Position numbers and translations under genes: made by a program. Positions 28,605-46,144 of a stretch of 64,000 nt of DNA are shown here, one piece after another. The first letter of the stretch is position 1. The number at the start of each line of letters is the position of its first letter. Under the pieces are notes generated by a model. It was not told the DNA's origin. It saw only the letters and a program-made list of their open reading frames with translations, and ran no database searches. This DNA is from an uncultured Fodinibius sp. (lineage in GTDB: Bacteria > Bacteroidota > Rhodothermia > Balneolales > Balneolaceae), in the NCBI GenBank assembly GCA_913056235.1, contig CAJXMW010000001.1, forward strand, positions 186,001 to 250,000. Reading direction: 5' to 3'.

Positions 28605-29039
28605 CTATACAGTCTCTGTAAGCTTTGCATCCAGTGTAATTTCTGTCCCGGCCAACGCCTTGGATACGGGACATCCTTCTTTGGCCCCTTCCGCAAATTC
28701 CAGGAACGTATCTTCACTGATTCCGGGAACATCGGCTTTGGCAATAAGATGTATTCCGGTTATCGCCGGACCGCTATTCGTCACTTCAAATGTAACTTTT
28801 GCCCGTGCATCTACTGATTGGGGATTATGTCCAGCTTCGCCCAGCTCGTTGGAAAGAGCCATAGCATAGCAGCCGGCATGAGCAGCTCCGATCAACTCTT
28901 CAGGATTTGTTCCCTCTCCATTTTCAAACCGGGAGGCAAAGGTGTACTCTCCCTCATAGGAACCGCTGTCGAACTTCATGATTCCATTTCCATTTTTTAA
29001 ATCACCATTCCAGGTTGCATCTGCTTTACTTGTAGGCAT
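28605..29039 (-). CDS. osmC: OsmC-family peroxiredoxin
   Basis: 144 residues. The two redox Cys lie in AAHAGCYAMALSNEL (about residue 57) and EGCPVSKAL (about 122), the paired-cysteine signature of OsmC/Ohr; the TNPEELIGAAHAGC segment is closer to OsmC than Ohr. It reduces organic hydroperoxides using the catalytic Cys of the first motif. It is leftward, convergent with the DsbA-like gene, and probably transcribed with or after the NnrS-like gene (24 bp upstream). Confidence 0.88.
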   Translation of the reverse strand: MPTSKADATWNGDLKNGNGIMKFDSGSYEGEYTFASRFENGEGTNPEELIGAAHAGCYAMALSNELGEAGHNPQSVDARAKVTFEVTNSGPAITGIHLIAKADVPGISEDTFLEFAEGAKEGCPVSKALAGTEITLDAKLTETV

Positions 29040-29063: not shown

Positions 29064-30194
29064 TTAGTTATTGCTGTTAATTGTTTGTTTTGAAACTTGA
29101 GTTTTTTGCTTTCGTTGACGTAAAGATTTTCGAATAAGCTGTATCATAATACCGCCCAAAAAGAGGATAATTGCCAGCACATTGCCATAACTTCCAATTT
29201 TTCTGACTACCGGCATCCAAATCAGATCCCCAATGACCCGGGTTACTAAAAAGCCGTGTAATAGGATAAGTGGTAAGTAAAAATACCGGTGCCATGGTAC
29301 CAGTTTACCTGACAGAGACGGGATGATGACTGAGGCATGGGCGAATATCATACTGAAGACAAAACCCACAAAGATCATGTGCAGCAGTCCGTCGTACAGT
29401 GGACCTGCCGTAGCAAATCCTATGAACAGCCCAAAAAGTCCCGCCAGGATGAGCCATCCATATCCAGATAACAAACAGATGGCACTGTACCGGGTCCACT
29501 GTGCCGCCTTGACCGTCCGCCGGGCAATGTCATACTTAATCAGCCAGCCGGAGATCCCTATCAATAAAACCGAGACTATACTCCATCCCACTATACGATT
29601 GATATGTGTTATAGCAAGTGCAAGAATCCATCCCAGAATGAGTCCTGCAAACAGTTGCTGCGCTTGTTTAGGCGGACGCATGATACGGTTCAGTTCCAGC
29701 CGTTCGCCAAAGATCGTAAGCATGGGGAAAGCCGCCCACCAGCCTACCAGCGTATAAATTTGATATCCATAGACATATAGCAAATTCCCAACCAGCAGCG
29801 AAGCTGCTCCCAATGCCATAATCAGGTGATAAACCTTTGGCTGTAAATATTGCAAATAACTCATTACCAGCGTCAGGCCAATGGATCCCAATATTAACGC
29901 CCATCCTCCCGGCACTAGCCATCCGCTGAGCATAAGTACCGTGGATGCTGCCATCAAGACCGGAGCAAAATAGGCCCATTTATTTTCCAGAGCAGCAGCC
30001 CGTTCCAAACCGATGAGAGCGCCCAGGAATCCATTAATCATGAGCGGACCGTGAGCCATTGGTGAGATGGCAGAACTTGATCCCGCCAAAAGACCCAGAC
30101 GAACCAGGCCGGCATACAGGCCTGTCAACAATCCTATAGCAGCAAAAAACAACAGGCTTACTAATATGTAGGTTGGTGTTTTAGCGGACTTCAA
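29064..30194 (-). CDS. Multi-span membrane protein, NnrS-like
   Basis: 376 residues with about eleven or twelve hydrophobic helices and a basic cytoplasmic tail. Segments such as PMAHGPLMINGFLGALIGLE and DGLLHMIFVGFVFSMIFAHAS place His and Met inside or at the ends of helices, like the heme/copper-containing NnrS proteins that protect against NO-derived nitrosative stress. The identity is by pattern only, and a distant membrane heme protein of other function is possible. Gene order with DUF2249, SufT and ferredoxin genes upstream, and a nirK-like gene nearby, supports a nitrogen-oxide role. Confidence 0.5.
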   Translation of the reverse strand: MKSAKTPTYILVSLLFFAAIGLLTGLYAGLVRLGLLAGSSSAISPMAHGPLMINGFLGALIGLERAAALENKWAYFAPVLMAASTVLMLSGWLVPGGWALILGSIGLTLVMSYLQYLQPKVYHLIMALGAASLLVGNLLYVYGYQIYTLVGWWAAFPMLTIFGERLELNRIMRPPKQAQQLFAGLILGWILALAITHINRIVGWSIVSVLLIGISGWLIKYDIARRTVKAAQWTRYSAICLLSGYGWLILAGLFGLFIGFATAGPLYDGLLHMIFVGFVFSMIFAHASVIIPSLSGKLVPWHRYFYLPLILLHGFLVTRVIGDLIWMPVVRKIGSYGNVLAIILFLGGIMIQLIRKSLRQRKQKTQVSKQTINSNN

Positions 30195-30217
30195 TGTTTT
30201 TTGTTTTAAGCTTGGGT

Positions 30218-30283
30218 GTCATTCTGGGCCATGTCTCTTTTAAAATATTTTAGTGATAGATCCTGAAATGAATTCAGGATGAC
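30218..30283. repeat. Intergenic palindromic repeat (GTCATTCTG...CAGGATGAC)
   Basis: The element begins GTCATTCTG and ends TTCAGGATGAC. Its right half is a hairpin, ATCCTGAA - loop - TTCAGGAT (30260-30280). It sits in the 123-bp gap between the SufT-like and NnrS-like genes. Sequences of this design recur in intergenic regions of Bacteroidota-type genomes. No T-run follows, so it is not a good terminator. Confidence 0.55.
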
Positions 30284-30317
30284 TTGGTGGTAGATATAAT
30301 ATTGGCTTTCAATCTGT

Positions 30318-30665
30318 TTACTGCATAGGCGGTGGATGTGCAAAAAATTCAACATCGTCTTTGATCATATCCACATTCCATTCCGGCTCCCAAACCAGTC
30401 GCGTCTCAAAATTTTCAATTTCATCCATCGACTGTAACGTTTCTTCGATCTGCTGCTGTAAGTAGCGGCGCATCGGACAGCCCGGCGTGGTAACGGTATA
30501 TTCGATAATAACCTTGCCATCGTCACACAAGATGTTATATACCAGCCCTAGGTCTACGATGTTTACGCCCAGTTCGGGATCAATTACATCGCGCAGCTGC
30601 CGGACTATCGTACGCCTTTTATCGGGAGTTAAATACATCGGATTATTACTATGCTGTTTTGCCAA
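30318..30665 (-). CDS. MIP18/SufT-like (DUF59) iron-sulfur assembly protein
   Basis: 115 residues. The motifs DPELGVNIVDLGLVYNI (about residues 28-44) and TVTTPGCPMRRYLQQQI (the conserved Cys, about residue 63) define the DUF59 family, which includes SufT and PaaD and helps insert Fe-S clusters into target proteins. The first codons overlap the upstream DUF2249 gene by 17 bp, so they are translationally coupled. Ferredoxin lies just before. The cluster therefore links Fe-S biogenesis or repair to the neighbouring nitrogen-oxide genes. Confidence 0.88.
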   Translation of the reverse strand: MAKQHSNNPMYLTPDKRRTIVRQLRDVIDPELGVNIVDLGLVYNILCDDGKVIIEYTVTTPGCPMRRYLQQQIEETLQSMDEIENFETRLVWEPEWNVDMIKDDVEFFAHPPPMQ

Positions 30666-30888
30666 TCCTCACCTTCCATACGTCGGGCCCCTCTTCGAGG
30701 TATTTCCAGGTAAACTTTTGATCGGCCCGTTCAGCGGCCATTTCGTATTTTAGTGGTTTCGGATCATGATCATTGATAATGACAAAAGTTTCTCCTGCAT
30801 CGAGATCGTCAAATGTTTCAAAAATAGTTGGATGTTTTCGTTTAGGTTCGATTTTTCGAACGTCAATTTTTTGTTCAGATTCAGACAT
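30649..30888 (-). CDS. DUF2249 domain protein, single domain
   Basis: 79 residues forming one DUF2249 unit: IDVRKIEPKRKHPTIFETFD, then NDHDPKPLKYEM and WKYLEEGPDVWKVRIGK. The HDPKPL motif is the hallmark. The family has no settled biochemical function; it is often found beside hemerythrin-like and denitrification genes. It overlaps the SufT-like gene by 17 bp and follows the ferredoxin gene by 49 bp. A three-unit paralogue lies at 36332-37075. Confidence 0.88.
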   Translation of the reverse strand: MSESEQKIDVRKIEPKRKHPTIFETFDDLDAGETFVIINDHDPKPLKYEMAAERADQKFTWKYLEEGPDVWKVRIGKTA

Positions 30889-30937
30889 TGTGTTCAGTTT
30901 TGGTTTAATAATTATAGGTTATACCGTTTACGGATAA

Positions 30938-31294
30938 CTACTTCCCTGCTTTTGCCTCTTCCCAGCTTTCAATCAGGTGCTCTCGCTTGTTTTCTCGGTC
31001 GCTCCATGCGTCAACTTCCGGCAGCGGTTCTTTTGCTTCATTGATAACATGTTCGGCCCATTCCTCCGACAGCTGTTCATTAAGCTCTATATAATCCACC
31101 CATTCCATAGGGACTTCATCATCGGGGTATATCGCTTCTTCGGGACATTCGGCCACGCAGGCATCGCAATCGATGCACTCCCAGGGATCAATTACCAGAA
31201 AATTGGGCCCTTCCCGAAAGGCATCTACGGGACAAACCGCGGCGCAGTTGGTATGCTTGCACTGAATACATGGATCCGTCACGACGTAAGCCAT
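30938..31294 (-). CDS. fdxA: 7Fe ferredoxin (FdxA type)
   Basis: 118 residues. The N-terminal 60 residues carry CIQCKHTNCAAVCPVDAF and ECIDCDACVAECPEEAI, the FdxA pattern for one [3Fe-4S] and one [4Fe-4S] cluster. The acidic helical C-terminal extension (about 70-118) is usual for this group. It donates low-potential electrons in the cytoplasm. It is the first gene of the leftward ferredoxin-DUF2249-SufT group and diverges from the Ric-like/SufR-like pair. Confidence 0.9.
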   Translation of the reverse strand: MAYVVTDPCIQCKHTNCAAVCPVDAFREGPNFLVIDPWECIDCDACVAECPEEAIYPDDEVPMEWVDYIELNEQLSEEWAEHVINEAKEPLPEVDAWSDRENKREHLIESWEEAKAGK

Positions 31295-31458
31295 AACTTC
31301 TCAAATAAGGTTGTTTTCATTGGTTCAACCCAAAGGTAGGAGTCCCGAAAATTAATATCAACTATAAAAACGGTTTTAACCTTTTTTATTGATTTATCTT
31401 GAAATCATTTATACTTTAAGTAACGGATTGAAACCAAAACAACTGGAGATTAATACGT

Positions 31459-32217
31459 ATGAAAACAGATCAATCCCTTGCCCAACTAACCCCGGAAGCA
31501 ACGATCGGACAGATCATTAATGCCAACACCGAGGCGGGTGAACTACTTGCTTCCATTGGGTTGTCTGTATCAGAGCATGAGAGTGAAACCTTACGGTCGG
31601 TTTGCCAGCAACAACAGTGGAGTGAAGTTGAAGTACTAAAGTGGGTGAAAAAGCACACCAACGGTACAAACGGCAATACCATGACCCAACCATCGGAGAC
31701 TTCCCTGTCCAACATTACAGGATTATCCAATTGGACGGAATACCTGGAGCGAGAATTTGTAAAACCCAACCAATCCCTGCTGGAAGAGTTACACCAAAGC
31801 TTCCCGAGAGTCCTTAAAATTCACGGTAACCAGTATACGTGGTTGAAAGATACGAAATGGCATTTTGAGCAGTTTCAGGAGAATCTGGAAATGTATTTTG
31901 AATTCGAGCAGAGAACATTCTTTCCGCTTGTTGAACAGCTTTCATCCACAAAGAAAAAGAGTCTCAATCACGGTGTAGTCCAAAAGCTCAACAACTCATT
32001 CGGGATTATCCAGCGGGACCAAGACCGGCTGAAACGTCAGATGAATACGATTCGGGAAAAAGACAACGGTTTCAACAATCCCGCCAATACCTGCTCAACA
32101 CTCCGAATTCAAAACAAGAACTTTACCCTTTTATTTGATAAGCTGGAACAACAGTTCCAGATAGAAGCTGACCACCTTCTGCCGAAGATTAAAAAGAAAT
32201 TACAAGCCCAAAAATAA
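31459..32217 (+). CDS. Ric/ScdA-like protein lacking the usual iron ligands
   Basis: 252 residues. The N-terminal ~65 residues align with the ScdA_N/DUF542 domain, TIGQIINANTEAGELLASIGL, but the family's Cys-Cys after GIDF is replaced by Ser38-Glu39 (GLSVSEHESETL). The C-terminal part follows the Ric hemerythrin-like layout (VLKIHGNQYTWL; FEFEQRTFFPLV; NNPANTCSTL; IEADHLLPKI), yet most di-iron His positions are other residues: PNQ for THH, Tyr for His in EMYFEFEQ, Gln for the late HxH. Ric repairs Fe-S clusters damaged by NO; this copy may sense, scaffold or regulate rather than carry iron. It is followed after 6 bp by the SufR-like regulator. The alignment is by eye. Confidence 0.7.
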   Translation: MKTDQSLAQLTPEATIGQIINANTEAGELLASIGLSVSEHESETLRSVCQQQQWSEVEVLKWVKKHTNGTNGNTMTQPSETSLSNITGLSNWTEYLEREFVKPNQSLLEELHQSFPRVLKIHGNQYTWLKDTKWHFEQFQENLEMYFEFEQRTFFPLVEQLSSTKKKSLNHGVVQKLNNSFGIIQRDQDRLKRQMNTIREKDNGFNNPANTCSTLRIQNKNFTLLFDKLEQQFQIEADHLLPKIKKKLQAQK

Positions 32218-32223
32218 ACTACT

Positions 32224-32853
32224 ATGTTTACTGGATCGAAAAAGGATATTGTCGAACTTATTAAACGCAGGGGTACGCTTTCGATCGACGAAGCCGTAGA
32301 ACAAATTGAATTGGCCAAAACCACTCTCCGTGAACATTTTCTTCAGCTGGAAAGGGATGGCTATGTGGAACGCGATTATGTACGCTCCGGACCGGGACGT
32401 CCCAGCCTACAGTACCAGCTTACACCCAAAGGAAACAGTGTTTTTCCGTCTTCCGAGTCCAAGTTGATCCGTAATATCATCAAATACCTGAAATCAAAAG
32501 GTAATGAGCAGTTAGTAGAAGATTTCTTTGAGGATTTCTGGAACCAGCGCCTGGAAGAAGCCGAAGACCGAATTGAGGCATCAGGTGCTGACGATCCGGA
32601 ATCCAAAATAACGGTACTGATGGAGATGCTGGACGAAGAAGGTTTTATGCCGGAATTTGACCTGGATCGGGAATCCGAAAAACTTGCGGTCAAAGAATGC
32701 AACTGTCCCTTTAGCGAAGTGATAAAGGAGACCCGCCTGCCCTGCAAGCTCGAGCAGATGTTTTACCGAAAACTCTTCAGCGAAAAAACCGAACGAATTA
32801 CCTACATCGCCGATGGCGATCATTCCTGCACCTATGATATCCCTGTAGGTTGA
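32224..32853 (+). CDS. SufR-like winged-helix regulator with Fe-S-type cysteines
   Basis: 209 residues. Residues 5-75 form a winged HTH (GTLSIDEAVEQIELAKTTLREHF; wing YVRSGPGRPSLQYQLTPKG). The C-terminal region has Cys159-x-Cys161, Cys174 and Cys202 in ECNCPFSEV, LPCKLEQ and GDHSCTYDI. This spacing and context resemble SufR, which uses a Cys-ligated cluster to repress Fe-S assembly genes. It is the second gene with the Ric-like gene (6 bp gap) and divergent from the ferredoxin group, so it probably regulates both arms in response to iron, oxygen or NO. Cluster binding is inferred. Confidence 0.82.
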   Translation: MFTGSKKDIVELIKRRGTLSIDEAVEQIELAKTTLREHFLQLERDGYVERDYVRSGPGRPSLQYQLTPKGNSVFPSSESKLIRNIIKYLKSKGNEQLVEDFFEDFWNQRLEEAEDRIEASGADDPESKITVLMEMLDEEGFMPEFDLDRESEKLAVKECNCPFSEVIKETRLPCKLEQMFYRKLFSEKTERITYIADGDHSCTYDIPVG

Positions 32854-32936: not shown

Positions 32937-34304
32937 ATGATTGTTCACGATTTAGCCAAGTTTGTACATAACGCAACCTACAATGATTTATCGGACGAGG
33001 CCGTTAATCAGCTGAAAATAAGGCTTTTGGATTCCCTGGGTACCGCGATCGGGGCCGTAGAAGGGCCACCGGTTCAGTCGATCCGGCGGATGATTGATGA
33101 TTTGGACGGAGCAAAATCAAGCACACTCATTGGCGGCGAAAAGACAAGTCCAGATCGCGCGGCCCTCTACAACAGCGGACTGGTTCGCTACCTGGATTTT
33201 AATGACAGTTACCTGGCCAAGGGAGAAACCTGTCATCCCAGCGATAATATTGGCTCTATTCTGGCGGCGGGCGAAACGACCAATCTGAGCGGCAAAGATT
33301 TTCTGGCGGCCCTGGCCGTCGCCTACCAGGTTCAGTGCCGGCTCAGCGATGAGGCCCCCGTGCGCGACAAGGGATTTGATCACACCACGCAGGGTTCATA
33401 CGCCGTAGCCGCGGGCGTTTCCAAAGCACTGGGATTGGAGGAAAAACAAACGGCGAATGCCATTGCGATTGCCGGTACTGCCCTAAATGCCCTTCGGGTA
33501 ACGCGAACCGGAGCGCTTTCCAACTGGAAGGGACTGGCTTATCCCCATACCGCATTCGGCGGAACCCACGCTGCACTGTTGGCGAAGTACGATATTACAG
33601 GTCCACCCGCCGTATTTGAGGGCAACAAAGGATTTATGGATTCCATTGCGGGCGAATTCACCATTGACTGGTCCAACGAAAACCTGGAGCGCGTTACAGA
33701 TACCATCATCAAGAAGTACAACGCGGAGATTCATTCCCAATCCTCTATTGAAGGGATTATTGAGCTAAAAAATAAACACGGCTTTTCCGCTGAAGATGTG
33801 GAGAAGGTAGAAATCGAAATTTTTGATGTAGCCTACCATATCATCGGCGGCGGCGAAGAAGGCGACAAAACCATTGTCCGCACCAAAGAAGAGGCCGACC
33901 ACAGCCTGCAGTATATGGTTTCGGCGGCGCTGCTCGACGGACAAGTAATGCCGGAGCAATACGAGAAAGACCGCATCGAAGCCGACGATATTCAAACACT
34001 GCTTCAAAAGGTGCAGGTTACTCCCAGTGAAACCTACAGCAATCGCTTTCCCGATGAAATGCCCACAAAACTGACCGTGCATCTTACAAACGGTGAACAC
34101 CACTCTATCGAAAAAAGCGATTACGAAGGGTTTCATACGCGTCCCATGAGCTGGGACACGATCATTCAGAAATTTGAAGGACTAGCTGAACCTTATACCA
34201 GCAAAGACCTGCGTGATCAAATTGTTAAAACAACACAAAATTTAGAACAACATTCGGTTTCCGAACTGATGGAATTATTAACAAAAGTGAAATTAGAATC
34301 CTAA
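32937..34304 (+). CDS. MmgE/PrpD family protein
   Basis: 455 residues, the usual family length. Characteristic segments are LKIRLLDSLGTAIGA, YNSGLVRYLDFNDSYLA (the FNDxxL active-site region), HPSDNIGSILA, and RVTRTGALSNWKGLAYP. Members dehydrate 2-methylcitrate, decarboxylate cis-aconitate or epimerise iminodisuccinate; sequence alone does not choose between them. None of the methylcitrate-cycle partners is next to it. Instead a phosphosulfolactate-synthase-like gene follows after 63 bp, suggesting a joint pathway. No clear Shine-Dalgarno precedes ATG 32937. Confidence 0.9.
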   Translation: MIVHDLAKFVHNATYNDLSDEAVNQLKIRLLDSLGTAIGAVEGPPVQSIRRMIDDLDGAKSSTLIGGEKTSPDRAALYNSGLVRYLDFNDSYLAKGETCHPSDNIGSILAAGETTNLSGKDFLAALAVAYQVQCRLSDEAPVRDKGFDHTTQGSYAVAAGVSKALGLEEKQTANAIAIAGTALNALRVTRTGALSNWKGLAYPHTAFGGTHAALLAKYDITGPPAVFEGNKGFMDSIAGEFTIDWSNENLERVTDTIIKKYNAEIHSQSSIEGIIELKNKHGFSAEDVEKVEIEIFDVAYHIIGGGEEGDKTIVRTKEEADHSLQYMVSAALLDGQVMPEQYEKDRIEADDIQTLLQKVQVTPSETYSNRFPDEMPTKLTVHLTNGEHHSIEKSDYEGFHTRPMSWDTIIQKFEGLAEPYTSKDLRDQIVKTTQNLEQHSVSELMELLTKVKLES

Positions 34305-34367
34305 GGAATATTTGAATTATGTGGATACGGTTTCCGTATCCCAACAAAAATAAAAAAGGTGGCTATT

Positions 34368-35192
34368 ATGGCCGACGAAAAAACATTCGATTTCCTCAAC
34401 AAAAACGAACGAGAATCCAAACCCCGAACGACCGGCGTAACCGAAATCCGTGGTCCCTATTATGCCGTAATGGGCAAACGTTATCTTAACGATATTATGG
34501 AAACAATGGGCGAACACGTGGATTCGCTGAAGTTTTCCGGCGGATCGTTTTCTATCATGCCCAAGGACAAAGTGACCGAGCTGATTGATATCGCACACGA
34601 CCATGATTCGCTGGTTTCCACCGGCGGCTTTATGGAGTATGTACTCACCCAGGGCAAGGGAGCCGTCGATCAATATATCCAGACCTGCAAAGATTACGGT
34701 TTTGATATCATTGAGCTTTCGGCGGGATTTATTTCCCTGCCTACTGACGACTGGCTCCGGTTAATTGACAAGGTGCAGGACGCCGGACTGAAGGCAAAAC
34801 CCGAAATCGGTATTCAGTTTGGGGCCGGCGGCGATACAGCTAAAGGAGAACTTGAATCCGAAGGTACCCTGGACACCGGCTATGCCGTAAAACAGGCCAA
34901 ACGTTTTGTGGAAGCCGGAGCCTATATGATCATGATTGAATCGGAAGGTATTACCGAAAATGCAGATCCCTGGAGAACGGACGTGCCCGCCGAATTTATC
35001 AATGAAATTGGCTTGGAAAAGCTGATGTTTGAAGCTGCCGACCCTGAAGTGTTCGCCTGGTACGTCAAGAACTATGGTCCCGAAGTCAACATGTTTGTTG
35101 ATCACAGCCAGATTGTACAGCTCGAAACACTGCGCCGCGGCATCTGGGGCACCAAAAGTCTTTGGGGACGCGTGCTTACGTATAAAGATTAA
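34368..35192 (+). CDS. Phosphosulfolactate synthase-like (ComA family) protein
   Basis: About 274 residues. ATG 34368 was chosen because AAGGTGG stands six bases before it; a GTG nine bases upstream is the alternative. The TIM-barrel motifs GPYYAVMGKRYL, VDSLKFSGGSFSIMP, GFDIIELSAGFISLP and KPEIGIQFGAGG match the ComA family, which adds sulfite to phosphoenolpyruvate to make phosphosulfolactate in coenzyme M synthesis. Neither ComB phosphatase nor ComC dehydrogenase is next to it. Sulfonate or sulfonolipid metabolism, or another Michael addition, is possible. It is probably co-transcribed with the MmgE/PrpD gene. Confidence 0.85.
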   Translation: MADEKTFDFLNKNERESKPRTTGVTEIRGPYYAVMGKRYLNDIMETMGEHVDSLKFSGGSFSIMPKDKVTELIDIAHDHDSLVSTGGFMEYVLTQGKGAVDQYIQTCKDYGFDIIELSAGFISLPTDDWLRLIDKVQDAGLKAKPEIGIQFGAGGDTAKGELESEGTLDTGYAVKQAKRFVEAGAYMIMIESEGITENADPWRTDVPAEFINEIGLEKLMFEAADPEVFAWYVKNYGPEVNMFVDHSQIVQLETLRRGIWGTKSLWGRVLTYKD

Positions 35193-35991: not shown

Positions 35992-36331
35992 ATCCTAAAA
36001 CAGAACCAGATTCTGAGTACAAGCAAAGGAACAATGTTTCCACCGACATCGCCCGAAATGTCAAAGAAACGAACAGATTCGGCGCCCGATCAGGAAAGGC
36101 ATTTCGCAATTTGAGCAAGGAAGTTTTAAGGAGGGGGCACTTGATGAAAAACAAAGCAAATGTAAACTCAACCGAAGAGAAACTGACTTTTAAAGTTGAA
36201 ATAAAATGTAACGAACCAACGAATCATTAACTGTATAATCCCCTGTACTATTTTTTACCTCTCAAGATTTACTAAAGACAAAAAGTGACTAATAGTAGGA
36301 ATTGATAGTCTTAAATACTTTGAATAAAGCT
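35992..36331. other. Intergenic gap with weak coding content
   Basis: 340 bp between the thioesterase and the DUF2249 gene. The only candidate is the very short frame at 36144-36230, listed separately. No hairpin, palindrome or known element is seen; the region just before 36332 is AT-rich as expected for a promoter. Confidence 0.4.
36144..36230 (+). CDS. Possible 28-residue small protein
   Basis: ATG 36144 is preceded by a strong AAGGAGGGGG nine bases upstream. It encodes 28 residues rich in Lys, Asn and Glu, including EEKLTFKVEIKCNE. The ribosome-binding site is the only support; length and composition cannot confirm it. Confidence 0.25.
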   Translation: MKNKANVNSTEEKLTFKVEIKCNEPTNH

Positions 36332-37075
36332 ATGAGTAACACAACACAAGAACTGGATGTACGCAATCTTATTCCCATTAAACGACATGAAAAACTCCTA
36401 AAGCTTTTCAAAGAGCTACCCGTCGGAGAAAGCTTTACTTTCATTAATGACCACGATCCCAAGCCTCTGTACTACGAGTTTCGATCGATATACGGAAATG
36501 TAATTGGCTGGGAGTATCTGCAGCGTGGCGGACAAGAATGGAAAGTAAAAGTGACACGAACCGAGGAGTCAAAGGGACGCGAATTTGAGGAGATTTCAAC
36601 CCTGATGGACCTGCGCGAAGCTGATAAAAAAGACTGGAAGCATATTGTTTTCCACCGCTATGGCATGATGATGAAAGGAGATACGATGGAACTGATTGCT
36701 AAAGATAACCTCGAAGAGATTCAGAACATTTTTAGTAAAAAATTCACAAATGAATATAAGTGGGAAAATAAAAAGGAAGAGCCGGGTAAATATATCGCCC
36801 ACATCACCAAAAAAGAAACCGGTGACGGTATTGCTGCAGATGATATAAGTGTTGTAAATAAGTTCGATGTCCGCCCACATCCACCGGCCAAACGGCACGA
36901 TATGATTTTTGAAGCTTTTGAAGCCTTGGAACCGGGCGAAGCATTTGTATTTACCAATGACCACGATCCCAAACCGTTGTACTATCAGATGGAAGCGGAA
37001 AGTAAAGAACCGTTTGAATGGGAATACCTGCTGGCTATGCCCGAGGAATGGAAGGTAAAGGTCACAAAACAATAA
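36332..37075 (+). CDS. DUF2249 protein with three tandem units
   Basis: 247 residues from ATG 36332 (an upstream in-frame TTG at 36302 is less likely). Units 1 and 3 (about 8-75 and 178-247) are plain DUF2249 domains: LDVRNLIPIKRHEKLLKLF with NDHDPKPLYYEF, and FDVRPHPPAKRHDMIFEAF with NDHDPKPLYYQM. The middle segment (about 87-165) follows the same secondary pattern, LMDLREADKKDWKHIVFHRY ... YKWENKKEEPGKYIAHITK, but lacks HDPKP, so it looks like a diverged copy. Function is unknown. It lies just before a Cys-rich secreted protein and the nirK-like gene, suggesting a link to nitrogen-oxide or copper chemistry. Confidence 0.85.
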   Translation: MSNTTQELDVRNLIPIKRHEKLLKLFKELPVGESFTFINDHDPKPLYYEFRSIYGNVIGWEYLQRGGQEWKVKVTRTEESKGREFEEISTLMDLREADKKDWKHIVFHRYGMMMKGDTMELIAKDNLEEIQNIFSKKFTNEYKWENKKEEPGKYIAHITKKETGDGIAADDISVVNKFDVRPHPPAKRHDMIFEAFEALEPGEAFVFTNDHDPKPLYYQMEAESKEPFEWEYLLAMPEEWKVKVTKQ

Positions 37076-37675: not shown

Positions 37676-38863
37676 ATGAATTTTTTGAAATACACACTTC
37701 TCTCGGCCGGACTATTTCTGGCAATGAGCCTATCCACGGCCTTTGCACAAGGGAACGAACAACAAAAAGCAGAATATAAAATTGGAGATAACTGGTACGG
37801 ACTACCGGATGCCAAGATCTTTCAGGAAGATTACGACGGGCCACCGGTTGTGGGTAATCATATTACCAAGTTGCCGAATGTAGCTCCGCTTGAAGAAGGC
37901 AACCAGACCCACGACATCCGTATGGATATTGTGGCGCAGGAAGTTGAGGTTGCTCCGGATATCCGCTACAAAGCCTGGACGTTTGGCGGATCAGTACCCG
38001 GGCCAGTCATTCACGTTCGTCAAGGTGATAAAATTAACTTTACGATGAAAAACCGATCCCATGAAAAAGTATCGGTTTCGCAGCCGGCCAAAGGAGGCTC
38101 GATGTTCCTCGAGCAGCTGAGCAATAACAATATGCAGAAGCCCAAGGCAGTTGCCCAGCCGATGATGCACTCGATGGACTTCCATGCAGGTACCGTTGCT
38201 GCTAATGATAAATGGCAAAACGTGCCTCCGGGAATGTCTATTCAATTTGAATGGATCGCCAACTATCCCGGTGTTTACATCTATCACTGTGGAACACCAC
38301 CGGTGCTTCAGCACATGTCCATGGGACAGTATGGCGTTGTCATCGTATCGCCCAAAGAAGGATATCCGACAGACGAACAGGTAGACAAGGAGTTTGCCGT
38401 GGTGCAATCTGAATTTTATTTGAAGCAAAAGCAAACCGAAGAAGACTCCAGTCTGTATGAAGAAGGTGGCGAAAAACCAACCTCGCTTTATGAGCTGGAT
38501 TATGACGCAGCTATGAAAAAACAGCCGACCATTGTTGCCTTTAACGGGCACCAGAATGCTATGATGGACAATCCATTAAAAGTGAAAAAAGGCGACCGCG
38601 TGCGACTGTACATGCTCAATGTAGGTCCCACAGATGTAGCGAGCACCCACGTCATTGGCGCTATCTTCGACCGCGTATGGTACGAGGGCAATATTCAAAA
38701 CGAATGGCGCGGCATGCAGACTGTATTGCTCGGTGCAAGCAACGGGGCCGTTCTGGAATTTATCGTTCCTGAAAACGGGCACTACGTTCTGGTTGATCAC
38801 GAAATGGCCGACGCTGAAAAAGGTGCCAAAGGCCTGATCGTCACCGAAAATGAATCCAAATAA
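37676..38863 (+). CDS. nirK: NirK/AniA-like two-domain multicopper nitrite reductase
   Basis: 395 residues with a signal peptide (ends TAFAQ). Two cupredoxin domains carry the ligand set: His165 (type 1) and His170 (type 2) with catalytic-type Asp168 in HSMDFH; His204 and Cys205 in YHCG; His213; catalytic-type His325 in STHVIG; and type 2 His375 in VDHEMAD. This is the AniA-like (class II) pattern. At the axial type 1 position, five residues after His213, where NirK has Met, there is Gln218 (HMSMGQYG). About 30 extra residues precede HSMDFH. It likely reduces nitrite to NO with electrons from the azurin next to it. An oxidase role cannot be ruled out. The 128-bp upstream gap contains AGTGAGCTA/TAGCTCACT. 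Confidence 0.8.
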   Translation: MNFLKYTLLSAGLFLAMSLSTAFAQGNEQQKAEYKIGDNWYGLPDAKIFQEDYDGPPVVGNHITKLPNVAPLEEGNQTHDIRMDIVAQEVEVAPDIRYKAWTFGGSVPGPVIHVRQGDKINFTMKNRSHEKVSVSQPAKGGSMFLEQLSNNNMQKPKAVAQPMMHSMDFHAGTVAANDKWQNVPPGMSIQFEWIANYPGVYIYHCGTPPVLQHMSMGQYGVVIVSPKEGYPTDEQVDKEFAVVQSEFYLKQKQTEEDSSLYEEGGEKPTSLYELDYDAAMKKQPTIVAFNGHQNAMMDNPLKVKKGDRVRLYMLNVGPTDVASTHVIGAIFDRVWYEGNIQNEWRGMQTVLLGASNGAVLEFIVPENGHYVLVDHEMADAEKGAKGLIVTENESK

Positions 38864-38898: not shown

Positions 38899-39393
38899 AT
38901 GAAATCTCTCCGAAAAATAACTGCACTTTTCACCCTCTTGTTAATGCCCTTTTTAGCGGCCAATGCGTTTAATACCCAAACTGATGGCCCGGATGAGGAC
39001 GTTCGTACTATCAAGATCAAGGGTACCGACCAGATGAAGTTCGATGTGACTGAAATCAACGCAGTACCGGGTGAAAAAATCCGTATTGTCTTAACAACCG
39101 TGAGCAAGCTGCCTAAAATGGCAATGTCTCACAATGTAGTTGTACTTAAAAAAGGAGCAGATGCAGAAGCATTTGCCAACGCATCAGCCATGGCCCGCGA
39201 CAACGACTATATCGCGCCGGACATGAAAGATCAGATTATTGCCGCAACGGCATTGGCCGGAGGGGGTGACACGGTTGAAATCACCTTTACTGTGCCAGAA
39301 GATGCAGGATCCTATACCTACATCTGCTCGTTCCCAGGCCATTATTTGGGTGGGATGAAGGGTACACTGAATGTAAAAAAACCTTCCAGCTAA
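38899..39393 (+). CDS. Azurin-like blue copper protein
   Basis: 164 residues with a signal peptide (about 1-24, ending ANAF). Ligands are His78 (MSHNVV), Cys143, His148 and Met153 in CSFPGHYLGGMKG, the azurin arrangement with one additional residue before the Met. LAGGGDTVEITFTVPE precedes it. It carries electrons in the periplasm. The gene is 35 bp after the nirK-like gene, so it is almost certainly its co-transcribed electron donor. A stem-loop follows it. Confidence 0.9.
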   Translation: MKSLRKITALFTLLLMPFLAANAFNTQTDGPDEDVRTIKIKGTDQMKFDVTEINAVPGEKIRIVLTTVSKLPKMAMSHNVVVLKKGADAEAFANASAMARDNDYIAPDMKDQIIAATALAGGGDTVEITFTVPEDAGSYTYICSFPGHYLGGMKGTLNVKKPSS

Positions 39394-44905: not shown

Positions 44906-46144
44906 TTATTTGAATATGATATCCTTTTGCAGGTATTTCTCCAGTTCAATAACTCTCAGATAATAATCCCTGAGGGTGTCGTAATAAGATTGCTGAGTTC
45001 GCAAATAGGTGCGCTGGGCTTCCAATAGTGTCAACAGATCCAGCTCTCCCATCCGGTATCCTTTTTGAGTCATATCAACCAGCTCTTTTGATTTCTTCTG
45101 GATGGATTTTCGGAATCGTTTGATATTTGCCTGCGTGGTCTCATAACCATGCCAAGCCTGCTCAGCCTGTTTTTTGATTGACAGCTCTTCTTCCTGGAAG
45201 CGCCATTCCTGCACGCGGTACTGGGCCTTTGATTGTTGAACCTTATTCGATTGATTAACCCCAAACCACAGAGGAATACTAACACCTACTTCAAAAGCAT
45301 TGAAATCAAATCCATTACCAAAATCCTGGCGATAGTATTTTAGGTTGATATCCGGCAAATACCCGCTTTTGGCCACCTTTGTTTGATAAGATGCTGCCAG
45401 CTGATCTTTGCTAAATTGCTGAAGCTGGGGATGCTGCTGCAACTGCTGTAATACTTCATCCTGATTGATATCTACAGCTACATAGTGCAGCGTGTCGGGA
45501 AAGCTTATATCATACGTTTGTTGTTCTTCCTCCAGGCCTATGGTCTCAAAAAGGTTGTAGCGAGCATCCATAATATCCTGATACGCTTTTTCCATGCTGT
45601 TTTGCGCCTCCGTAAGCTGAAGGTTGGCCTGCATGGCATCAATTTCCGAGGATTCCCCCAGATCGGCCCGCGACTGTGCAGCATCGCGCAGGCTTTTAAA
45701 CAGGTCCACGCGCTCACGGGCCAAGTGGCTCGATTCAATAGCATAAGCCAGTCGTGTATAGGCCGACTTTACATCGGCTTTAAGCTGAAGCCTCAATGCT
45801 TCCAGCTCTAACTCCATGGAACGGGTTTTGGCTTTTTCGCTCTTCAAACGGTAATAGCCGGTAAGCGGAAAATCCAGCGATTGTGATACAACCCAGCGTT
45901 GTTCAGCAAATGACCCCTGTCCTATACCTTCTTTGGCATAGTTTACTTCGGGATTATTAATACCCAAACTCAGCGGTTGCTGCTGTCGCTGGGCCTCAAT
46001 ACGATTTTTGAGCTGATTAACACGAGGGTTATGCTGATATGCAATTTCCAGGGCTTTGCCCACACTCAAGTTATTGAGGTCAGTGGTATCCGCGGGGGTT
46101 GACTGAAATGAGATCAGAATTACTAGAACTACAGAAAAAATCAT
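44906..46144 (-). CDS. czcC: TolC-family outer-membrane partner of the Czc system
   Basis: 412 residues. A hydrophobic N-terminus (about 1-20) is followed by the paired helical repeats of the outer-membrane efflux family (for example LRLQLKADVKSAYTRLAYAI and EAQRTYLRTQQSYYDTLRDY). It completes the CzcCBA pump. Its stop lies 19 bp before the adaptor start; a 45-bp stem-loop separates it from the upstream sensor kinase. Confidence 0.87.
   Translation of the reverse strand: MIFSVVLVILISFQSTPADTTDLNNLSVGKALEIAYQHNPRVNQLKNRIEAQRQQQPLSLGINNPEVNYAKEGIGQGSFAEQRWVVSQSLDFPLTGYYRLKSEKAKTRSMELELEALRLQLKADVKSAYTRLAYAIESSHLARERVDLFKSLRDAAQSRADLGESSEIDAMQANLQLTEAQNSMEKAYQDIMDARYNLFETIGLEEEQQTYDISFPDTLHYVAVDINQDEVLQQLQQHPQLQQFSKDQLAASYQTKVAKSGYLPDINLKYYRQDFGNGFDFNAFEVGVSIPLWFGVNQSNKVQQSKAQYRVQEWRFQEEELSIKKQAEQAWHGYETTQANIKRFRKSIQKKSKELVDMTQKGYRMGELDLLTLLEAQRTYLRTQQSYYDTLRDYYLRVIELEKYLQKDIIFK

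Follow-up and report, generated by a model that had tools for sequence, protein, structure and literature searches.

A 64,000-nucleotide window of DNA from a Fodinibius-type Balneolaceae genome of 3.97 Mb (the window is the whole stretch analysed here, bases 186001–250000 of contig C1) contains a divergent gene module with a conserved 20-bp palindrome between its two arms. The left arm encodes, in order, an FdxA-type ferredoxin, a DUF2249 protein, a PF01883 (DUF59, SufT-like) protein, a 12-helix membrane protein and then possibly an OsmC-family protein. The right arm encodes RicL, a protein with the fold of Ric, and, 6 bp downstream, a winged-helix regulator that resembles SufR. The gene set, the palindrome with a fixed promoter geometry, its tie to the regulator gene and the ligand cysteines of the regulator are all conserved among related genomes. 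Salt-loving Balneolaceae thus share this divergent pair of gene sets, whose common switch most likely senses damage to an iron-sulfur (Fe-S) regulator protein and induces genes for coping with nitrogen oxides.

A reading of the sequence alone had suggested a small cluster-sensing regulon that joins Fe-S maintenance to nitrogen-oxide genes. The core of that proposal is strengthened by synteny and by the palindrome. The six reading frames were all found at the coordinates claimed, the gap between the two divergent start codons measures 164 bp as stated, and the gene set, cysteines and intergenic palindrome of the divergent module are kept across many genomes, beyond chance. RicL as a repair protein, the NnrS label and the membership of a nirK-azurin pair did not hold.

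Conserved gene set, palindrome and promoter geometry

The sample comprised 146 genomes including the window's own, and 60 stretches of up to 20 kb were compared together with the window. Neighbours are genes within 8 kb of the SufR-like gene, and the synteny counts include contig-end loci and, for some genomes, two loci. The regulator has matches in 52 of the 146 genomes, 47 of them close (best identity 41–100%) and five distant only (28–29%); a Ric/RicL query has matches in 74. Among the 37 Balneolaceae loci (family f1), RicL lies near the regulator in 34, the ferredoxin in 25, DUF2249 in 22 (single and triple forms merged; 14 single, 19 triple-size), and the SufT-like and membrane protein genes in 21 each. 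RicL, ferredoxin, SufT-like and membrane protein are jointly present in 19, and the ferredoxin is 67–96% identical among the other Balneolaceae loci carrying one. The five loci of family f7, which we take to be Rhodothermus-type, have another gene order (Ric in 5, DUF2249 in 4, SufT in 4, membrane protein in 4, ferredoxin in 3), and their version of the set carries a canonical Ric. In the sister family f3 (10 loci) the regulator is found near Ric in 8, NrfH in 7 and NrfA in 6. Scanning named genomes turned up 44 loci in Fodinibius, Aliifodinibius, Gracilimonas, Balneola, Rhodohalobacter, other Balneolaceae/Balneolales, Salinivenus and Rhodothermus, with a few loci under the labels Bacteroidetes, Chitinophagaceae and uncultured bacterium; because exact peptide patterns were required, this number is a lower bound and no proof of absence elsewhere. 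The neighbourhood comparison thus shows a conserved module that is not scattered across unrelated neighbourhoods. A second module copy is present in the same genome as the window (locus L061, about 478–488 kb of C1, the module itself at about 484–488 kb). It adjoins a cbb3-type oxidase, with a canonical Ric about 7 kb away and OsmC and azurin also further off.

The palindrome is of the AAAACGGT-N4-ACCGTTTT type and lies between two promoters, each made up of a TTG element and a -7-like box (Table 1). Bacteroidota have promoters of the TTG/TAnnTTTG type, which the window pair resembles. On the right side, a TTG after 2 bases and a TAnnTT-like box 20 bases on are present in 32 of 36 loci. On the left side, a TTG after 5 bases is followed by a box 20 bases on in 27 of the 27 loci having the left TTG, which was not found in 10 of 37 loci (eight from f3, one cut short). 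Upstream regions were taken from 54 loci, one of which (L093) was dropped as too short; 53 were scored and 37 trained a matrix. The palindrome scores 13–15 of 16 in 37 of the 53 regions, and in a Markov-shuffled control 8 of 2650 regions score 13 and none above. As the template was chosen from the same upstream regions, the genome-wide test described below weighs more. When the matrix was run over the 61 sequences, part of which had trained it, it gave 74 sites against 18 for a reversed control at score 11, 54 against 1 at 15, and 42 against 0 at 20. Among the 16 low-scoring regions, L077, L084, L087, L088, L091, L092, L094, L095 and L097 have a matrix site at the module or close to it; several of these sites are weak. 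Weaker sites occur in L108 and L110, and L109 and L112–L115 have no site at a score of 11 or more. Other palindrome matches within the window have three mismatches each.

Two other boxes were rejected as the intergenic site: TTGA-N6-TCAA, whose sole occurrence in the window is at 45065, and the cyanobacterial SufR operator CAAC-N6-GTTG, which has no exact match in 31295–31458, one match with one mismatch at 31326 and a window count at chance level. A scan for sigma-70 promoters and terminators gave matches near chance level.

The palindrome and the right TTG were combined into a composite pattern, which was searched with up to one mismatch in the 146 genomes. There were 61 matches, spread over 43 genomes, compared with 4 when the pattern was reversed. 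A SufR-like or RicL gene is found no more than 1.3 kb away from 45 of the 61, among them all 27 exact ones. Exact matches occur in 24 genomes, of which 23 have the regulator; the exception, G018, is a genome 71% complete with RicL at the site. In the window's genome there are two matches only, this locus and the second module copy. A wide regulon there was rejected: a loose pattern gave 143 matches against 214 when reversed, and the strict pattern those two. The remaining 16 matches comprise eight in regulator-less genomes, four inside unrelated genes (G057 C2, G022 C45, G021 C3 and G104 C219) and four that are intergenic. Two overlapping matches lie between NDH-2 and DUF3565 genes (G036 C290), and one lies upstream of a 158-aa gene (G036 C25, matrix score 18.8). 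The fourth (G119 C53, matrix score below 15) falls at the start of an HTHP heme-protein gene and ahead of FdxA, and a truncated globin gene follows. Further matrix sites are found in the globin/HTHP gap of L088, before HTHP in L084 and beside CtaA in L096–L099. At L236 (G082 C300), the palindrome separates SufT-like and membrane protein genes from triple DUF2249, NirK and Ric genes.

The two arms had been said to share a control region, and the palindrome tied to the regulator indeed sits between both promoters. Both arms are very probably controlled by the SufR-like protein through the palindrome. The palindrome could instead belong to an Rrf2/NsrR-like or Crp/Fnr-like regulator, with the SufR-like gene merely one of its targets. 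Rrf2 genes lie near 4 of 37 loci in f1 and 7 of 10 in f3, and Crp/Fnr genes near 8 of 37 in f1 (each family identified on a single representative). The position of all exact sites beside a SufR-like or RicL gene, the presence of the regulator in nearly all genomes with such a site, and the difference between the palindrome and the TTGA-N6-TCAA box make this very improbable.

Table 1. Coordinates of the module and of neighbouring features in the window.
Feature	Position	Strand	Remarks
Operator palindrome AAAACGGTTTTAACCTTTTT, predicted SufR-like site	31367..31386	.	AAAACGGT-N4-ACCGTTTT type, 20 bp
Right promoter TTG	31389..31391	+	2 bases from palindrome
Right promoter -7-like box TACTTTAA	31412..31419	+	right TTG/N20 geometry
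Left promoter TTG	31359..31361	-	5 bases from palindrome
Left promoter -7-like box TACCTTTG	31331..31338	-	left TTG/N20 geometry
SufR-like winged-helix regulator, predicted [Fe-S] repressor of both arms	32224..32853	+	TIGR02702 73.5 bits
RicL, Ric-fold protein, Cys pair gone, most di-iron ligands replaced	31459..32217	+	TIGR03652 54.2 bits
FdxA-type ferredoxin, first left-arm gene	30938..31294	-	NF045490 129.7 bits
Single-domain DUF2249 protein	30649..30888	-	PF10006 98.8 bits; 17-base overlap with next gene
SufT/PaaD-like DUF59 protein	30318..30665	-	PF01883 62.3 bits, cut-off 23.5
12-helix membrane protein, predicted heme-copper-oxidase subunit I fold	29064..30194	-	AF2 pLDDT 89.2
OsmC-family protein, possible last left-arm gene	28605..29039	-	PF02566 62.6 bits, cut-off 27.5
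Triple DUF2249 protein, conserved neighbour	36302..37075	+	PF10006 195.1 bits, 3 stretches
Divergent NirK-type copper nitrite reductase, neighbour	37676..38863	+	TIGR02376 194 bits, cut-off 296.3
Azurin, neighbour	38899..39393	+	TIGR02695 78.3 bits, cut-off 105.1; PF00127 58.5 bits, cut-off 21.2

The SufR-like regulator and the proposed circuit

The N terminus of the regulator is a winged helix (PF08220 HTH_DeoR, 27.1 bits, cut-off 21). Its score against the SufR equivalog model TIGR02702 does not reach the cut-off of 178.8 bits, and we therefore call it SufR-like and not SufR. The Rrf2 domain PF02082 has no match in it up to E 0.1, and a phmmer search of the PDB returned designed proteins without a passing stretch and general helix-turn-helix matches. 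Four cysteines had been assigned to positions 159, 161, 174 and 202, correctly. Cys161, Cys174 and Cys202 are kept in 59 of 59 sequences, and position 159 is Cys in 53, Asn in five sequences linked to superoxide dismutase and Ser in one. The spacing of the three invariant cysteines (13, 28) is that of C203, C216 and C244 in Mycobacterium tuberculosis SufR (Rv1460), of which serine variants failed to complement in the experiments described in the available part of PMC6034842. By this likeness, the regulator would carry a [4Fe-4S] cluster on Cys161, Cys174 and Cys202, with Cys159 optional. Its ratio of nonsynonymous to synonymous substitution rates (dN/dS) is 0.02–0.08 in Fodinibius-type pairs. 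A second SufR-like subfamily (L116–L120) is 26–29% identical and has Asn at the Cys159 position. Of its five loci, four have an Fe/Mn superoxide dismutase nearby and all five an NADPH-dependent FMN reductase (PF03358, one representative); a member of this subfamily scores 115.7 bits with the SufR model.

The genomic setting points to nitrite and nitric oxide (NO). A NirK-type gene is present in 41 of the 47 regulator genomes and in 30 of the 99 without (Fisher p 4.5e-11, kinship uncorrected; the NirK list runs to E 1e-25 and includes many frames under the curated cut-off). NirK lies near 12 and azurin near 14 of the 37 Balneolaceae loci, and neighbours in related genomes include NirK, NrfHA, a truncated haemoglobin and a cbb3-type oxidase. 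Both the enrichment and the adjacent genes support nitrite and NO as the setting of the module. Long NirK-type frames (551–562 aa) adjoin Ric genes at L236, L238 and L239. In the window itself, the nirK-azurin pair had been placed next to the module; it is near but not adjacent, the region between regulator and nirK being occupied by MmgE/PrpD, a ComA-like protein, an acyl-ACP thioesterase, a short open reading frame, the triple DUF2249 protein and a hypothetical protein. Since the pair has no copy of the operator, nirK and azurin are neighbours and were rejected as direct members of the operator regulon.

In the circuit that we propose, the SufR-like protein would be a homodimeric winged-helix repressor with a [4Fe-4S] cluster. 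In unstressed cells the holo dimer would sit on 31367–31386, over the TTG elements of both promoters, and because a repressor bound there covers both, the left arm and the regulator's own RicL-SufR operon would be off. NO produced from nitrite by the neighbouring NirK, or another cluster-destroying agent, would strip the cluster, whereupon the dimer would leave the DNA and both arms would be switched on. The induced output would be Fe-S delivery or repair capacity together with membrane-side NO handling, until fresh SufR-like protein re-forms the holo repressor and the response ends. We regard the full circuit, a SufR-family repressor of a small nitrosative- and Fe-S-stress regulon, as reasonably probable. 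NO from nitrite reduction is the likeliest agent of cluster damage, and NO is more probably than not the main signal.

The same circuit might answer to another signal, either general Fe-S or iron status or oxidative stress, like cyanobacterial SufR, the nitrogen-oxide genes being mere neighbours in a respiratory island. The superoxide dismutase beside the related subfamily, a nirK that lacks the operator and the closeness of OsmC all agree with this. Against it stand the genes that neighbour the module and the other palindrome copies (globin, HTHP, NDH-2, NirK, NrfHA and DUF2249 genes), as well as sufB, which is located on another contig (C6) with no palindrome at a matrix score of 15 or more in the surrounding 18 kb. 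A signal of this kind is rather unlikely.

Several observations weigh against the proposed circuit. Iron limitation, superoxide or oxygen would also damage a cluster. The eight scored f3 loci lack the left TTG at the expected place, so control on both sides is not universal; in f3, only the operon of the regulator itself seems to be controlled from the palindrome. The two loci of f12, presumably Salinibacter-type, have no site at a matrix score of 11 or more, and only 2 of the 5 f7 loci have a site (scores 19.9 and 14.8). At L236 the regulator is a remnant and the palindrome is still intact. The palindrome and matrix searches of the window found no operator copy at nirK and azurin. NrfA is not enriched (9 of 47 regulator genomes and 14 of 99 without, p 0.47, NrfA list at E below 1e-100), and by the same lists 4 of the 47 regulator genomes have neither NirK nor NrfA.

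RicL, the membrane protein and other genes

RicL had been described as a degenerate Ric-like protein involved in repair. The first part is borne out and the second is not, as the Cys pair and most of the iron ligands are lost. Against the Ric model TIGR03652 it stays below the cut-off of 204.7 bits, compared with 248 bits for the canonical Ric of the same genome. Its structure model (predicted local distance difference test score, pLDDT, 90.2) matches Ric 9r7j_D in Foldseek with TMt 0.88 and a root mean square deviation (rmsd) of 1.8 over 159 columns (E 7.5e-4). YtfE 5fnn_B is matched at E 1.7e-4 but with an rmsd of 13 over both domains. A phmmer search of the PDB gave seven matches at E 0.2–1.2, six of them YtfE/ScdA. 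We take the di-iron ligands of Ric, in Escherichia coli numbering, to be H84, H105, H129, E133, H160, H204 and E208. The window RicL keeps three of the seven mapped ligands (H122, E150 and E236), has V101, Y146, Q188 and Q232 at four His-ligand positions, and shows S38/E39 in place of the N-terminal Cys pair. This pair is missing in every degenerate sequence covering those columns, and Fodinibius-type copies have Tyr at the H129 position and Gln at the H204 position. The copies in L095–L099 are intermediate, with more ligands kept, and the canonical Ric genes adjoining the regulator (eight in f3, one in f7) keep all nine positions.

In an unrooted tree of 51 sequences, a single branch (support 100/99) separates 33 sequences without the CCGG motif from 18 with it, the latter including four from Balneolaceae; long branches were flagged by the program. 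The split suggests that RicL is a paralogous lineage which has replaced Ric, and not a product of fresh decay. The dN/dS of RicL is 0.14–0.17 in eight Fodinibius-type pairs; the L096/L098 pair gives 0.018 with dS saturated, and window/L061 values are missing for three genes. RicL is constrained, but loosely, and recent junk was rejected as an explanation on the well-supported tree group and the purifying selection. Between the window and L061, ferredoxin is 96% and DUF2249 97% identical, the SufR-like protein 64% and RicL 45%; RicL thus diverges far faster than its module neighbours.

With the Cys pair and most iron ligands lost, RicL probably does not act as a repair enzyme of the known type. 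It might still work in iron repair, or as a di-iron protein linked to NO, through an altered metal site, as the preserved fold, the three ligands kept in the window copy, the additional ones in L095–L099 and the purifying selection would allow. This is improbable given the missing Cys pair and the Tyr and Gln substitutions in Fodinibius-type copies, given that a separate canonical Ric exists in the window's genome and in those of at least L079, L085 and L099, and given that RicL looks broken in L072 and L077 with the regulator intact (assembly errors are possible there). The broken copies also disfavour an obligatory partnership between RicL and the regulator. A further reading, which we offer tentatively and consider rather unlikely, is that a SufR-type lineage gave up the control of suf genes and turned into the nitrosative-stress switch of Balneolaceae, with a pseudo-Ric as its regulatory partner. 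Such a pseudo-Ric would be a paralogue of Ric whose iron site was lost and which displaced the canonical Ric beside the regulator; in place of iron repair it would serve the SufR-like protein, for example by handing over, removing or shielding its cluster.

The label 'NnrS-like' for the membrane protein was dropped: PF05940 has no match in the whole genome up to E 10, and the protein itself has no Pfam or NCBIfam match up to E 0.1. Its predicted fold is nevertheless that of subunit I of heme-copper oxidases. VIA-align gives Z 28.2 to CcoN 8smr_E (rmsd 3.5, 351 residues aligned) and Z 25.9 to the nitric oxide reductase 4xyd_A; the best Foldseek E value is 2.4e-3. An alignment of 24 sequences has just three invariant His residues, His48, His272 and His286. 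A heme-bearing, NO-handling role is plausible.

For the other left-arm products, the ferredoxin scores below the FdxA cut-off of 135 bits (NF045490) and above those of several Fer4 models and DUF3470, and the DUF59 protein is under the NCBIfam SufT and PaaD cut-offs. The OsmC gene starts 24 bp past the membrane protein gene and is a neighbour of the regulator (within 8 kb) at 15 of the 37 Balneolaceae loci; the left arm may extend to it. Between the SufT-like and membrane protein genes, an inverted repeat ATCCTGAA...TTCAGGATGAC (about 30259–30285) was noted by eye; as L067 has a repeat of this form upstream of RicL, it may be a dispersed repeat.

Beyond the regulator, genes for MmgE/PrpD (PF03972) and a ComA-like protein (PF02679) occupy 32937–35189, starting 83 bp downstream; MmgE/PrpD is near the regulator in 15 of 37 loci and the ComA-like protein in 13. 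MmgE/PrpD dehydratases need no Fe-S cluster, and for this reason the enzyme would suit a cluster-damage regulon. Triple-size DUF2249 proteins (at least 200 aa) make up the 19 of 37 given above.

Comparison with known systems

No description of this regulon was found in the open-licence literature. A 2021 review, in its available part, presents SufR as the dedicated suf repressor of Cyanobacteria and Actinobacteria. In our analysis, a regulator of the SufR type is found in Fodinibius, Gracilimonas, Rhodohalobacter, Salinivenus and Rhodothermus-type bacteria. Its apparent targets there are genes for DUF2249, ferredoxin, DUF59 and heme-copper-fold proteins, frequently with nitrite reductases close by. 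The pseudo-Ric offers an example at hand of a repair protein that has become something different.

The window regulator is like SufR of Cyanobacteria, M. tuberculosis (Rv1460) and Streptomyces in its winged-helix N terminus, and like Rv1460 in its Cys spacing. SufR genes are often divergent and autoregulatory (excerpts of PMC6034842 and PMC8593673), and the cyanobacterial operator is CAAC-N6-GTTG (excerpt of PMC8593673). The regulator is unlike SufR in its model score and operator, in its predicted targets, which are the ferredoxin, DUF2249, SufT-like and membrane proteins, and in the location of sufB on another contig. For Ric/YtfE/ScdA, the likeness lies in the fold of RicL and in the canonical Ric beside the regulator in f3; the missing Cys pair and ligands and the separate tree group set RicL apart.

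The regulons of NsrR, DNR, NorR and HcpR, which we take to be other regulator families than that of the window, have the same kind of output as the module but other DNA motifs. They include dnrN/ytfE, nnrS, globins and denitrification genes, and a SufR-type regulator is absent from the account of them in the part of PMC1274295 available.

Genes of the DUF2249 family are tied to denitrification in archaea and Thermus, with an unsettled function: in Haloferax mediterranei they lie near nirK/nor and are induced under denitrification (excerpt of PMC11218638), and Thermus DrpA/DrpB have been proposed as nitrate sensors (excerpts of PMC11218638 and PMC6282519). For these haloarchaeal and Thermus clusters, the excerpt of PMC11218638 describes no divergent switch of the SufR type. 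With the operator predicted here, the part played by DUF2249 becomes testable in bacteria.

A parallel in sensing, likened by its description, is ArnR of Corynebacterium glutamicum, a three-cysteine winged-helix [4Fe-4S] repressor that is released by NO and represses genes for nitrate respiration and NO detoxification (excerpt of PMC12343034). ArnR differs from the window regulator in its cysteines (179, 193 and 223) and its targets (narKGHJI and hmp), but it provides a precedent for NO sensing by a three-cysteine winged-helix repressor.

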